From Candidatus Nitrosopumilus sp. (lineage in GTDB: Archaea > Thermoproteota > Nitrososphaeria > Nitrososphaerales > Nitrosopumilaceae), in contig JAOMJV010000001.1 in assembly GCA_028351415.1 (NCBI GenBank), forward strand, positions 104,898 to 153,173: DNA of 48,276 nucleotides. Direction: 5' to 3'. Under the pieces are notes generated by a model. The model was not told where the DNA came from, searched no databases, and saw only the letters and a program-made list of their open reading frames with translations. The translations under genes and the position numbers were made by a program. Positions 34,867 through 40,547 of this stretch are shown piece by piece (within the stretch, counting starts at the first letter, position 1; every line of letters starts with the position of its first letter).

Positions 34867-35474
34867 TGGTTAGTGTAGCAATTTTTGACTATGGTGCTGG
34901 AAACATTTTCAGTCTCAAAAATTCCCTTGAGCAGGCAGGTGCTTCAGTAGATGTTATCACTTCTTTTGATAAACCTAATGTTTATTCTGGATTATTATTG
35001 CCTGGAGTGGGTAATTTTGATCCTGCAATAAAAAGTATAAATGAAAATTCAAAAACTAAATTTCAAGATTTTGTAAAGCAAAATACTCCTGTTTTAGGCA
35101 TCTGTCTTGGCATGGAAATGTTTTTTGAAAAAAGTGAAGAGGGTATTGAAAAAGGATTCAATGTAATTGATGGCGAGATAGTGGTTTTACCATCTACTGT
35201 AAAAGTGCCTCATATGGGGTGGAATAATTTAGAAATCAAAAGACCTGGAGTTATTTTAGAGGGGGTCAAAGATGATTCCTGGGTTTATTTTGTTCACTCT
35301 TATCGTGCACAACCAAAATTTAATGATGTAATAACTGCTGAATCCGATTACGGCGTTAAAATTCCTGCAGTTGTTGAGAAAAATAACTTCTTTGGAACTC
35401 AATTTCACCCTGAAAAGTCTGGAGATGTTGGAAAAATCATGATACAAAATTTTCTAAGCGTGTGTAAAAAATGA
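34866..35474 (+). CDS. hisH: imidazole glycerol phosphate synthase, glutaminase subunit
   Basis: The 202-residue class I amidotransferase has IFDYGAGNIFSLKNSLEQ, LLPGVGNFDPA, VLGICLGMEMFFEKSEEG with nucleophile Cys80, and GTQFHPEKSGDVG with the His-Glu pair. It supplies ammonia to HisF. It follows hisB directly and overlaps hisA by an ATGA. Confidence 0.96.
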   Translation: MVSVAIFDYGAGNIFSLKNSLEQAGASVDVITSFDKPNVYSGLLLPGVGNFDPAIKSINENSKTKFQDFVKQNTPVLGICLGMEMFFEKSEEGIEKGFNVIDGEIVVLPSTVKVPHMGWNNLEIKRPGVILEGVKDDSWVYFVHSYRAQPKFNDVITAESDYGVKIPAVVEKNNFFGTQFHPEKSGDVGKIMIQNFLSVCKK

Positions 35475-36178
35475 AAGTAATTCCTGCAATTGATCTTATG
35501 AACGGGCAAGTAGTTAGATTGTATAAAGGTGATCCCAACCAAAAAACAGTATACAGTGATGATCCAATCAGTATTATAAAAAAATGGGAAGATGCTGGCG
35601 CTGACATGATTCATCTTGTAGATTTAGATGCAACCTTGGGCCTGGGCTCTAATTTTGAATTAATTAAAAAAATTGTTTCCTCAGTCTCAGTACCTGTTGA
35701 AATTGCTGGCGGATTGCGCTCTGAATCATTAATACTTGAAGCTCTAAAAATTGTTGACAGAGTTGTAATTGGAACTTTTGCTTTCAAAGAACCAGAACTA
35801 TTACAAACATTACTAACCAAACTAGGCCCTGAAAAAATTGTTATTTCCGTTGATCATAAAGACGGAATTATTGTAACGCATGGCTGGCAGGATACTACTG
35901 ATATTTCCTTAATTGACTCGATGAAGGAATTTTTGCATGTTGGATTTACAGAATTTCTTTTAACCAATGTTAATCGTGACGGAACCTTGGAAGGACCAGA
36001 TTTAGAATTTCTTAAAGATGCATGTGATTTAAAAAATGCAAATGTAATTGCTAGTGGTGGAATTTCTAATGTTGACGATATTCCTAAAGTAAAACAAAGA
36101 AATGCATGGGGTGTTATTTTAGGCAAAGCACTTTATGAGAATAAAATTACAATTCAGGAGACCAAGAAATTAGCATGA
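35471..36178 (+). CDS. hisA: ProFAR isomerase (HisA)
   Basis: The 235-residue half-barrel-duplicated TIM barrel has [19 protein letters not shown] with catalytic Asp8, [10 protein letters not shown], and [20 protein letters not shown] with the second catalytic Asp (about 127). It isomerises the N-ribosyl aminoimidazole intermediate. It overlaps both hisH and hisF by four bases. The second barrel half reads [15 protein letters not shown], and length is normal. Confidence 0.95.
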
Positions 36179-36978
36179 CCCTAACTAAAAGAATTATTCC
36201 TTGTTTAGATGTAAAAAATGGCAGAGTAGTTAAGGGCTTGAATTTTGAATCCATTAAGGACGCTGGAGATCCAGTTGAATTAGCTGCTAAATACAGCAAT
36301 GAGGGTGCTGATGAACTTGTATTTCTTGACATTACAGCTTCTGATGAACAACGAGAAACAATTAAGGAATTGGTTCGTAAGGTTGCATCTGTGATTAACA
36401 TTCCGTTTACTGTTGGCGGCGGCGTAAGATCAATTGACGATGCTCGAAACATTTTACTTAATGGCGCTGATAAAGTCGGGGTCAATACTGCGGCAATAAA
36501 AAATCCAGCACTGATTACCGAACTGATGACATTGTTTGGCAGGCAATGCGTTGTAGTTGCAATTGACGCAAAAAGAAATTATGACATCAAAGAAAATGTA
36601 AATATCTTTTCAGAAGATGACAAAAAATTCTGGTTTGAAGTTTTTATTTTTGGTGGAAAACAAGGAACTGGAATTGATGTAATTACGTGGGCAAAAGAAG
36701 CTGAAAAATCAGGTGCTGGAGAAATTCTACTTACTAGTATTGACGCTGATGGTACTAAAAATGGATATGATGTTTTACTTACAAAATCCATTGTTGACAA
36801 TGCATCTATACCCGTAATTGCATCTGGTGGATGCGGAAAACCCGAAGACATGGTGGATATTTTTGAAAAGTCAAATGTTGATGCTGCACTTGCAGCCTCA
36901 ATTTTTCACTATGAATCCCACGGAGTTACAGGTGTGAAATCTTTTCTTAAAGAGAAAAAAATCCCTGTAAGATTATAA
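36175..36978 (+). CDS. hisF: imidazole glycerol phosphate synthase, cyclase subunit
   Basis: The 267-residue TIM barrel has [19 protein letters not shown] (catalytic Asp11), [29 protein letters not shown] (second Asp), [17 protein letters not shown] and [14 protein letters not shown]. With HisH it forms imidazoleglycerol phosphate and AICAR. Its ATG overlaps the hisA stop. Confidence 0.96.
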
Positions 36979-37001
36979 TATCTAGGCTGTATGCAGTGAT
37001 T

Positions 37002-37328
37002 ATGAAAAAGTCTGTTGATGAAATTGATTTTAAAAAAGGTGATGGTCTTGTGCCTGTAATTGTCCAGGATGCAAACACAAAAGATGTTCTTACTCTTGCT
37101 TATGCAAACAAGGAGTCTTTGGAACTGGCAAAAAAAACTGGTAATTCTTGGTTTTGGAGTCGCTCAAGAAATAAGCTTTGGATGAAGGGTGAAGAGTCTG
37201 GTAACACTCAGAAAATTAGAGAAATACTAGTTGACTGTGATTCCGATGCAATAATTTATCTTGTTGAACCATTAGGTCCTGCATGTCACACTGGTGAAAA
37301 AGTTTGTTTTCATCATGAATTAAAATAA
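37002..37328 (+). CDS. hisI: phosphoribosyl-AMP cyclohydrolase
   Basis: From ATG 37002 the protein has 108 residues with [50 protein letters not shown], the metal motif [13 protein letters not shown], and [12 protein letters not shown]. It opens the purine ring of PR-AMP. An in-frame GTG two codons earlier is possible. It is the last his gene, and the pyrophosphatase HisE, often fused to or next to HisI, is not present here. Confidence 0.94.
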
Positions 37329-37974: not shown

Positions 37975-38008
37975 ATTTTTTATGTATCTTAGCAGGTAAT
38001 TATTGATC

Positions 38009-39220
38009 TTGGCTAGAACTTCATTACAATGTAGGGAGTGTAAAAAAGAATTTGAAACCGGTTTCAAGTATGTCTGTGATGACTGCTTTGGTCCATTAGA
38101 CGTCAAATATGACTTTCCAACTTTGAGAAAAGATACATTTTCTAATCGCGAACAGACCTACTGGCGATATTTTGAATTGCTTCCAATAGAGAATAAATCA
38201 AATATTGTTAATATTGGAGCTGGAATGACCCCACTTACTAAAGCTGATAATCTTGGAAAAAAATTAGGACTAAACAATCTTTACATAAAAAATGATTCTG
38301 TAAACCCTACATTCTCATTTAAAGATAGACCCGCTGGGGTTGCAATTTCAAAAGCAAAGGAACTTGGATTAACTGCAGTTGGTTGTGCATCAACTGGTAA
38401 TTTAGCATCTGCAACTGCAGCACATGCAGCTAAAGCCGGACTACCGTGCCATGTATTTGCACCAAGTAATATTGAGATGCCAAAAATTGCTCAAGCATTA
38501 TCTTATGGTGCAAATTACATTGCAGTTGATGGAACTTATGATGATGCAAATAGAATTGCAGCACAAATCGGTGATAGTAAGGGAATTGGTATAGTAAACA
38601 TTAACCTACGTTCACATTACGTTGAAGGCTCTAAAACATTTTCTTATGAAGTTGCAGAGCAGCTTGGTTGGGAAGTGCCTGATCAATTAATAGTTCCTGT
38701 TGGAAGTGGCGCAATGCTTAATGCAATTTGTAAGGGATTTGAAGAATTACAAACTGTTTCATTGTTAAATGATGTCTCCAATATGCATATGGTTGCAGCA
38801 CAACCGCATGGATGTGCACCTATAGTTGATGCTTTTAAGAAAAATTCTAAACAAGTAATTCCAGTCGAAAATCCGGATACAGTTGCTAAGAGTTTGGCAA
38901 TAGGTGATCCTGGAGATGGAAGATATGTTTTGAAAAGATTACAACAGTATAATGGATTTGCAGAAGAATGTAACAATAAAGAAATTTTAGATGCTATACT
39001 TCTTTTGGCTAAAACTGAGGGCATATTCACAGAACCTGCTGGGGGTGTAGCTATTTCTGTATTGCAAAAAATGGTTGAACAAGGCAAGATTGATAAAAAT
39101 GATAAAGTTGTATGCTATGTTACTGGTAACGGTCTGAAAGCAACCGAATCTATTATGCAAGTATTGCCGCAACCAACTGTATACAAACCAAACATTAATG
39201 AAATCTCCGAGGCGGTTTAA
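38009..39220 (+). CDS. thrC: threonine synthase
   Basis: From TTG 38009 the protein has 403 residues and begins MARTSLQCRECKKEF, a small C-x2-C...C-x2-C metal-binding-type head (with YVCDDCFGPLD). The PLP domain follows, with SFKDRPAGVAISKAKELG holding the PLP lysine, ASTGNLASATAAHAAKAGL and VGSGAMLNAICKGF. ThrC converts O-phosphohomoserine to threonine. A TTG two codons upstream (38003) is also open and lies five bases after an AGGT. The TATA position favours 38009. The threonine produced also feeds cobalamin side-chain synthesis. Confidence 0.92.
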   Translation: MARTSLQCRECKKEFETGFKYVCDDCFGPLDVKYDFPTLRKDTFSNREQTYWRYFELLPIENKSNIVNIGAGMTPLTKADNLGKKLGLNNLYIKNDSVNPTFSFKDRPAGVAISKAKELGLTAVGCASTGNLASATAAHAAKAGLPCHVFAPSNIEMPKIAQALSYGANYIAVDGTYDDANRIAAQIGDSKGIGIVNINLRSHYVEGSKTFSYEVAEQLGWEVPDQLIVPVGSGAMLNAICKGFEELQTVSLLNDVSNMHMVAAQPHGCAPIVDAFKKNSKQVIPVENPDTVAKSLAIGDPGDGRYVLKRLQQYNGFAEECNNKEILDAILLLAKTEGIFTEPAGGVAISVLQKMVEQGKIDKNDKVVCYVTGNGLKATESIMQVLPQPTVYKPNINEISEAV

Positions 39221-39224
39221 TAAT

Positions 39225-40547
39225 ATGGCAAATATTACATTTACAATTCCTTCCGTACTAAATGCAGGCGGTGGGGAGAAAAAAATTGAAATCTCTGCTA
39301 ATTCTCTACAGGATTCATTTGTAAAAATATCTGAACTTTTAGGTGATGACTTTAAGCGTCGAGTCTTAGAGGCTGATAACACGCCTCGTTCTTTGATTAA
39401 TATTTACATTAATGGTAAAAATGCCAAATTTTCCAGTGGCATGGAAACACCTCTAAAAGATGGTGATGACGTCTATATCTTACCTGCAGTTGCTGGAGGC
39501 TCTGAAGATTTATCCTCAAAAGAACTTGATAGATATTCCCGTCAAGTAATGCTTGAAGAAATTGGATACAACGGACAATTAAAATTAAAAAATTCCAAGG
39601 TTTGTGTTGTTGGAACTGGTGGATTGGGACACCCAATTATTACAAGATTAACTGCAATGGGTGTTGGTACATTAAGAATTATTGATAGGGATGTAATTGA
39701 ACTATCTAACTTGCATAGACAAACATTATTTGATGAAGATGATGTTGGACAAGTAAAAGTTGAGGTAGCCGCAAAAAAATTAAAAAAATTAAATTCTGAA
39801 TGTAACATTGAAGCTTTAACTGTTTCTGTTAATGATTATACTGCACTTGAAGTTGTAGAAGGATGCGATGTTGTAATTGATGCACTTGATTCAGTTAATG
39901 CAAGATATGCATTAAACAAAGCATGTGTTAAGTTTGGAATTCCATTTGTTACAGGTGCTGCAGTTGGAACATCAGGACAAGCATTTACAATTTTACCAAA
40001 AGAAAGTGCATGTTATTATTGCATGTTTCCAGAACTTGATGAAGATACAATGCCAACTTGTAGCATTGAAGGAGTACATCCATCAATTCTTTCTATCATG
40101 GGTGGAATAGAAGTTGCAGAAGCTGTAAAAATAATCACTGGAAAGAAACCAAATCTTTCAAATAGAATTTTACATATTGATTTAGAAAATTTAGATTTTA
40201 ACAGTACAAGAACATTTAGAGCTGATGAATGTCCTATTTGTGGAACTGGAAAATTAGAAGTTGTAGAAAAACAAGAATTAATTTTAGAAGAATTATGTGG
40301 GAGAAATAGAGGAAAGAGAACATACTCTATTACTCCAACTGATACTTTTGAACTTGATTCTGTAAGCGTTTCTGCAGTTGCAAAAGAAAAAGGATTTTTA
40401 GTTGAAAATTTAGGTGATTTGGGATTATCTATGAGAACAAATGATCTTTCTGTTAATTTTATGAAACGTGGTTCCGCTGTAGTTGTTGGATCAAAAGATG
40501 AGTCTGATGCTGTAATACTTTACAAAACTCTTCTATCTAGAATTTAG
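39225..40547 (+). CDS. ubiquitin-like (MoaD/ThiS) domain fused to E1-like ThiF/MoeB adenylyltransferase
   Basis: From ATG 39225 the protein has 440 residues in three parts. Residues 1-92 are a MoaD/ThiS beta-grasp domain ending in VYILPAVAGG, the diglycine of sulfur-carrier proteins. Residues 98-330 are an E1-like adenylyltransferase: RYSRQVMLEEIGYNGQ, GTGGLGHPI, IDRDVIELSNLHRQTLF, VIDALDSVNARY. CYYC (263-266) and CPIC (336-339) form a zinc site, and TCSIEG has the likely catalytic Cys279. Residues 355-440 form the extra C-terminal domain seen in several archaeal homologues. Such enzymes activate sulfur carriers for thiamine, molybdopterin or tRNA thiolation. The diglycine here is internal, so it needs cleavage or acts in cis. 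The start follows thrC by four bases. Confidence 0.85.
   Translation: MANITFTIPSVLNAGGGEKKIEISANSLQDSFVKISELLGDDFKRRVLEADNTPRSLINIYINGKNAKFSSGMETPLKDGDDVYILPAVAGGSEDLSSKELDRYSRQVMLEEIGYNGQLKLKNSKVCVVGTGGLGHPIITRLTAMGVGTLRIIDRDVIELSNLHRQTLFDEDDVGQVKVEVAAKKLKKLNSECNIEALTVSVNDYTALEVVEGCDVVIDALDSVNARYALNKACVKFGIPFVTGAAVGTSGQAFTILPKESACYYCMFPELDEDTMPTCSIEGVHPSILSIMGGIEVAEAVKIITGKKPNLSNRILHIDLENLDFNSTRTFRADECPICGTGKLEVVEKQELILEELCGRNRGKRTYSITPTDTFELDSVSVSAVAKEKGFLVENLGDLGLSMRTNDLSVNFMKRGSAVVVGSKDESDAVILYKTLLSRI

Follow-up and report, generated by a model that had tools for sequence, protein, structure and literature searches.

How can a sulfur carrier work if the diglycine at its end lies in the middle of a longer polypeptide? 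The question is raised by a single open frame at positions 39225–40547 (+ strand) of the window, i.e., the entire 48,276-nucleotide stretch of DNA that was analyzed, which belongs to a 78%-complete assembly of an ammonia-oxidizing archaeon in the class Nitrososphaeria. The frame encodes 440 amino acids followed by a stop codon and joins a ubiquitin-like (Ubl) carrier domain to an activating enzyme (E1). The reading that we favor, with a probability of roughly 0.5, is drawn from sequence comparisons: the product would be a CysO-type carrier–E1 polyprotein that is cut after Gly92, loaded with sulfur, and used by a PLP enzyme encoded immediately upstream, with cysteine as the favored product. Ammonia-oxidizing archaea are among the most abundant marine cells, and a module of carrier, activator, PLP enzyme, and protease is a concrete candidate for the entry of sulfur into their amino acids.

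Architecture of the fusion protein

A preliminary description had interpreted the gene as a carrier ending in VAGG that runs directly into an E1-like enzyme with zinc and catalytic cysteines. This fusion is real, with coordinates and Gly92 exactly as described. It is documented by Pfam matches to ThiS (residues 49–92; 33.7 bits vs. a cut-off of 22.5) and ThiF (residues 104–337; 250.9 bits vs. 28.1) and by 47 fused orthologs, which rule out chance, a frameshift, or an assembly artifact as its source. Full-length or near full-length fusions occur in its own family and in two to three other families of the order (of the families labeled here, f1 is inferred to be Nitrosopumilaceae and f3 Nitrososphaeraceae).

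The N-terminal part (residues 1–92; 39225–39500, + strand) is a beta-grasp sulfur-carrier domain of the CysO/MoaD type, as indicated by the ThiS match, matches in the PDB, and the beta-grasp elements of the AlphaFold model. Its tail, LPAVAGG, has Gly91-Gly92 as its last residues; the Val-Ala-Gly-Gly of residues 89–92 (39489–39500, +) marks the end of the carrier, and cleavage is expected after Gly92. A linker that varies in sequence and length among orthologs (residues 93–103; 39501–39533, +) leads to an adenylation domain of the ThiF/MoeB family (residues 104–337; 39534–40235, +), which is identified by Pfam, Foldseek, and its invariant residues. Residues R106, R165, K178, and D222 align with ThiF/MoeB and are invariant in the 47 fused orthologs, as are a first zinc pair, C263-YY-C266 (40011–40022, +), which aligns with the CYRC of ThiF/MoeB, Cys279 (TGT; 40059–40061, +) in the cysteine column of ThiF/MoeB, and a second zinc pair, C336-PI-C339 (40230–40241, +), placed by the same alignment. 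The protein thus has the Arg/Asn/Lys/Asp nucleotide-site residues and the two CXXC zinc pairs of sulfur-carrier E1s (ThiF/MoeB/UbaA). The E1 part matches ThiF of E. coli at 1e-46 and also MoeB, and the best Foldseek matches of the predicted structure are 1zud, 1zfn, and 1jw9 (ThiF and MoeB). By analogy, it is a putative ATP-dependent enzyme that would adenylate and thiocarboxylate the carrier.

The C-terminal alpha/beta domain (residues 338–440; 40236–40544, +) has a confident fold in the AlphaFold model. It is not a rhodanese, and no rhodanese domain is detected by Pfam anywhere in the fusion protein, unlike in MoeZ, MOCS3, and Uba4, where the E1 carries a C-terminal rhodanese. With Ubl, ThiF-type E1, and C-terminal domain on one chain, the protein belongs to the Ubl-E1 (MoaD-MoeB) family of Thaumarchaeota. 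This architecture is already published and not new: Makarova and Koonin listed it in 2010 as “Ubl-E1-TBP in Thaumarchaeota”, which names the C-terminal domain TBP-like (PMC2948915), and a fusion/fission survey of 2024 reports MoaD-MoeB fusions in 61 of 98 Thaumarchaeota and in a few Rokubacteria and NC10 (PMC11237513). The sections of both papers that concern this family do not discuss how the embedded diglycine works, nor do they mention a PLP partner, an ancestor ending in GG-stop, tails of secondary origin, or processing of the fusion by JAMM. The coupling to an altered threonine-synthase-like enzyme and the evolutionary case for cleavage appear to be undescribed in the open-access literature searched.

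The embedded diglycine and the origin of the fusion

If a carrier needs a free diglycine, the domain must either be cleaved or, as the preliminary description also considered, serve to regulate or dock other carriers. Residues L86–V89, G91, and G92 show zero variation across the 47 fused orthologs, with a mean column entropy of 0.02 bits for LPAVAGG vs. 1.2 bits for the linker, which is among the most variable regions of the protein and ranges in length from 10 to about 41 amino acids. A degenerate diglycine, which had been named as grounds for rejecting the interpretation, is not found: none of the 58 carrier loci has a residue other than Gly at either position. All four Gly codons are used at both positions (27/21/8/2 at one, 28/15/11/4 at the other), and so many silent changes without a single replacement indicate that the diglycine is under purifying selection. 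The AlphaFold model of the fusion has an overall pLDDT of 86, with values below 50 at residues 89–93, which predicts a flexible joint at the junction that would be accessible to a protease. The longest linker, with about 41 residues in a Ser/Asn-rich repeat, is found in G080, a member of family f2 (L159:1495–2943, – strand), and illustrates the freedom of variation at the junction; the gene is marked as split in the E1 tree but is actually still fused, with a stretched linker.

The distribution of fused and unfused genes is informative about the ancestral state. Families f7 and f14, which branch more deeply, have a carrier that terminates in LPAV(A/S)GG-stop, with the E1 starting a few codons downstream in the same frame; in families f9, f11, f15, f17, and f20, the carrier is a separate gene that likewise terminates at GG-stop. 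When the E1 parts are placed in a tree, those from fused genes (f1, f2, f3, and f5) fall into one clade together with three later re-splits (support 100/100). Since carriers ending in GG-stop occur in the deeper lineages and the fused E1s form a single clade, the free carrier is ancestral, and, judging from these sequences, it probably became fused through the loss of a stop codon. The re-splits concern three species of family f2, in which residues are retained after the diglycine: NSKGYGYG in G067 (8 residues), SRSSINITSSTGVWI in G099 (15 residues), and NSSIKKGYG in G360 (9 residues). A cut would therefore be needed in those species too; if the diglycine is used, cleavage after it would be required whatever sequence comes next. 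The lineage represents a natural experiment in which a Ubl carrier was fused to its own E1 by the loss of one stop codon and kept its diglycine tail.

An uncut Ubl domain might instead dock in the active site of its own or a partner E1, regulate it, or position another carrier, as argued by Iyer et al. (2006) for bacterial ThiF with an N-terminal Ub-like domain. These proteins (Campylobacter type) resemble the archaeal fusion in having the Ubl in front of a ThiF-type E1 but usually co-occur with free ThiS and thiamine genes, which the archaeal fusion does not. A search for separate carriers, as proposed in the preliminary description, detects no free ThiS/MoaD gene in the genome; the only ThiS-type domains found are that of the fusion and one fused to a Cgi121-like protein. 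The absence of a free carrier, the invariance of the diglycine next to a drifting linker, the free GG-ended ancestor, the tails of the three re-split forms, and the predicted flexibility of the junction all argue against a docking or regulatory domain, which we consider improbable. Of the two alternatives, it is cleavage that agrees with the retained diglycine, and a cut after Gly92 is very probably needed for function.

The Ubl domain at the N terminus of the Cgi121-like (KEOPS) protein is encoded on another contig of the same genome (G000:C5, L002:982–1755, – strand), and its internal IIPVIHGG is also conserved. This fusion is already listed among known architectures (PMC2948915). A second Ubl was observed in a genome of family f3 (G070), in a short frame of 95 amino acids.

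A PLP partner in the place of CysM

The gene directly upstream of the carrier (38003–39220, + strand) encodes a threonine-synthase-like PLP enzyme of fold type II (Pfam PALP, 248 bits). It ends four bases ahead of the carrier start, and both genes are probably co-transcribed. Each of the 58 loci that were checked, whether fused or unfused, has the PLP enzyme immediately before the carrier, usually with a gap of a few bases. Histidine genes of the hisA, hisF, and hisI type are located just upstream of the unit (window positions 35471–37328), and likewise in G042.

The scores of the PLP enzyme exceed the NCBIfam cut-offs for threonine synthase (NF006050, 310.1 vs. 303; TIGR00260, 293.5 vs. 167.1), which counts against the polyprotein reading. 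Its residues suggest a different enzyme. The PLP lysine (Lys61, Thermus thermophilus numbering) is kept in all 71 partner orthologs. Among the signature columns, defined as residues identical in four solved threonine synthases, T88, S155, N157, R160, Q164, N188, T239, W249, and others are altered in all 71, with a fixed set of replacements (L, N or T, R, Y, S, S, K, and G, in the same order). The same is true of G58, G64, M65, and N191, which together with T88, S155, N157, R160, and Q164 served as test columns for threonine synthase. Some of the altered columns are those expected to contact the phosphate group of the substrate in threonine synthase. Because the signature residues are replaced in 71 of 71 orthologs and mostly kept in a second ThrC of the same genomes, the partner is probably not an ordinary threonine synthase but a paralog that has lost the residues specific to that enzyme. 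This suggests that a group of archaeal and actinobacterial genes with the annotation “threonine synthase” may be something else.

The best PDB matches of residues 1–92 are CysO-type carriers (4n6e_B, 3e-12; CysO of Mycobacterium tuberculosis, 3dwg_C, 1e-11), which share the ILPAVAGG tail with the archaeal carrier. By its closest relatives and its LPAVAGG tail, the latter is of the CysO type; the free C-terminal diglycine of that type is internal in the fused gene product and present in the unfused lineages. The CysO pathway itself is established (PMC3227635). In actinobacteria, a CysM-type gene adjoins CysO in 80 of 80 loci and a JAMM gene is nearby in 77; the neighborhoods of these 80 CysO genes contain only CysM and no ThrC-like/CysO pairs. 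Since CysO adjoins CysM in all of these loci, the archaeal PLP enzyme occupies the place of CysM in the known pathway. The archaeal system resembles the CysO-MoeZ-CysM-Mec+ system of Mycobacterium and other actinobacteria in its ILPAVAGG carrier, its MoeB-type E1, its neighbor of PLP fold type II, and a JAMM protein encoded in the genome. It differs in that the carrier is fused to an E1 that lacks a rhodanese, that the PLP partner derives from threonine synthase and not from CysM, and that the JAMM gene is unlinked; a CysM-like gene is located elsewhere and is sometimes absent.

A counterpart of the archaeal pair is present in the actinobacterium Nonomuraea gerenzanensis, where it was located via a plasmid collection. 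Its PLP enzyme is 45% identical to the archaeal partner, with the same altered residues, and is followed after 28 nucleotides by a free carrier that ends in IIPAVAGG-stop. With the altered enzyme beside a carrier in both groups, the PLP–carrier pair crosses domains; no description of such a pair was found in the open-access literature. The Nonomuraea genes (L268:6001–7509) are unannotated, and a GroEL gene comes after them.

Alternatively, the cleaved Ubl might be a general-purpose carrier that serves tRNA 2-thiolation or the synthesis of molybdopterin or thiamine, like MoaD, ThiS, Urm1, or TtuB, with the PLP neighbor being incidental or required for threonine. The E1 of the fusion is the only one of the ThiF type found in its genome, so that it would have to cover any further functions of sulfur carriers, and profile models of MoaD_arch and SAMP1 also match the carrier. 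By contrast, the pairing with the PLP enzyme is kept in 58 of 58 loci and recurs in an actinobacterium, the closest solved carriers are of the CysO type, and one viable lineage (G068) has lost carrier, E1, and PLP enzyme together, which makes a general-purpose role unlikely. That the carrier serves its PLP partner seems rather probable. Whether archaea and actinobacteria share a new branch of sulfur assimilation via protein thiocarboxylates, in which a PLP enzyme derived from threonine synthase and a CysO-like carrier yield cysteine (or homocysteine) and which in ammonia-oxidizing archaea involves a JAMM-matured carrier–E1 polyprotein, is a more tentative proposition, whose chances we put at somewhat below even.

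The “threonine synthases” of Aliarcobacter and Chlorohelix represent a third class. In Aliarcobacter cibarius, this enzyme is encoded in a sulfur-assimilation cluster on plasmid pACIB (L271:7060–16760), together with a cysteine synthase, an M67 JAMM protease, a MoaD/ThiS protein, and an E1 match; a cysteine desulfurase encapsulin cargo is encoded further on.

Maturation, gene loss, and the possible product

There are several precedents for a cut after an internal diglycine. In vivo, HvJAMM1 cleaves the linear fusion SAMP1-MoaE precisely behind the Gly, a cut on which activity depends (PMC4443979), MoaX is cleaved between Gly82 and Ser83 (PMC4326299), and the pro-ubiquitin of the archaeon Caldiarchaeum is matured by Rpn11 (PMC5654768). 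For the present fusion, these cases may serve as analogies. MoaX, SAMP1-MoaE, and DrMoaD-MoaE also have an N-terminal carrier and an internal diglycine that needs a cut (MoaX has the same GG|Ser junction), but their carrier is fused to the sulfur-using MoaE and not to its activating enzyme. In the Caldiarchaeum case, residues that follow the diglycine of an archaeal Ubl are removed by a JAMM protease before activation by E1; there, however, the Ubl belongs to a ubiquitin cascade with E2 and E3 and carries a short propeptide, whereas in the fusion the diglycine is followed by the E1.

The JAMM protease that the preliminary description had proposed to look for is present and encoded elsewhere in the genome. 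A Prok-JAB protein occurs in all 20 genomes scanned, and all 18 of the scanned genomes in the fused lineages (f1, f2, and f3) have a JAMM1-like gene with an intact H[ST]HP..S..D motif (HxH...S..D). The homolog in the present genome has JAMM1 (5lda) as its closest solved structure in the PDB and matches the NCBIfam model of haloarchaeal desampylase with 58 bits, which is below the cut-off of 130; its gene is unlinked to the carrier–E1 operon. JAMM1 is the probable main protease acting on the fusion. The suggestion of a “minimal, self-contained” system is not supported, with the protease encoded elsewhere, no rhodanese attached, and the fusion being part of a two-gene unit with the PLP enzyme, to which the preliminary description did not link it. 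A second JAMM-type protein without an NCBIfam match is encoded on contig C7 of the same genome (L150:3811–4209, + strand) and also in the related genomes scanned.

The proximity of JAMM1 to archaeal desampylases would also agree with a role of the cleaved Ubl as a protein modifier, conjugated by the E1 in the manner of SAMPylation, perhaps in control of the PLP enzyme, and removed again by JAMM1; archaeal SAMPs are listed as both modifiers and sulfur carriers (PMC2948915). That the Ubl is strictly paired with a single metabolic enzyme and has a CysO-type tail favors sulfur transfer, and no gene resembling an E2 or E3 was noted among the open reading frames of the window around the fusion. A modifier function is therefore quite improbable.

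According to the polyprotein reading, the first step would be a proteolytic cut after Gly92 that frees the diglycine, most likely by the JAMM1/desampylase-like enzyme encoded elsewhere in the genome. From the chemistry of the family, the E1 part would then use ATP to adenylate Gly92, and another protein would supply the sulfur that turns the adenylated residue into a thiocarboxylate. The PLP partner would transfer the sulfur from the carrier onto an activated amino acid, most likely yielding cysteine, in analogy to CysM and CysO of actinobacteria, and JAMM1 would finally set the amino acid free, like Mec+. We infer all steps beyond the precursor.

The gain and loss of genes in related genomes bear on this scheme. 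In the majority of genomes that have the unit, a CysM-like gene is present as well, so a role in cysteine synthesis would in many cases be redundant; G066, G046, and G089, all of them complete genomes, have kept the unit and lack the CysM-like gene. Conversely, PLP partner, carrier, and E1 are all absent from G068 (99% complete; 1.16 Mb read), which keeps the CysM-like enzyme, a true ThrC, IlvA, TrpB, both JAMM genes, and Ubl-Cgi121. This pattern of loss fits a single functional unit that overlaps with the CysM-like enzyme, i.e., functions in cysteine synthesis, but concerns very few genomes; a second genome without the operon, G084, of which about 41% was read, is left out of the comparison. 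Since JAMM1 is retained in G068 without a carrier–E1 unit, it must have another role, and because the diglycine of Ubl-Cgi121 is intact there although no E1 was found, retention of the diglycine alone is no proof of E1 use; neither JAMM1 nor an intact diglycine is tied to the proposed pathway alone. In G068 (L289:5000–9500), the neighborhood of the his operon, which borders the unit in other genomes, has a seemingly shortened hisI and no unit, as if the unit had been deleted.

The product might also be homocysteine formed from O-phosphohomoserine, the substrate of threonine synthase, from which the PLP enzyme derives. None of the 18 genomes scanned in the fused lineages has a convincing match to PF01053 (MetB/MetC/MetY type) or any match to PF01837 (HcyBio), and it is this gap, together with the absence of a CysM-like gene from three complete genomes, that makes the unit of interest as a candidate route. 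Homologs of PF01053 are, however, also not found in G068, which lacks the unit, so that the unit does not explain the gap unless G068 is auxotrophic; homocysteine synthase, initially the first choice, was downgraded for this reason. Moreover, the presumed phosphate-binding residues of threonine synthase are altered in the PLP enzyme. MetE (PF01717) was not found in the genomes of f1 and f3; this is uninformative, given that they might use a B12-dependent enzyme. As for the identity of the product, the chances of cysteine are appreciable but below even, those of homocysteine are slim, and some other product has close to an even chance. Most of the archaeal genomes scanned also encode a long PLP protein of about 525 amino acids with weak similarity to CysK/CysM (L145:364–1938, – strand), which could be another cysteine-related enzyme.
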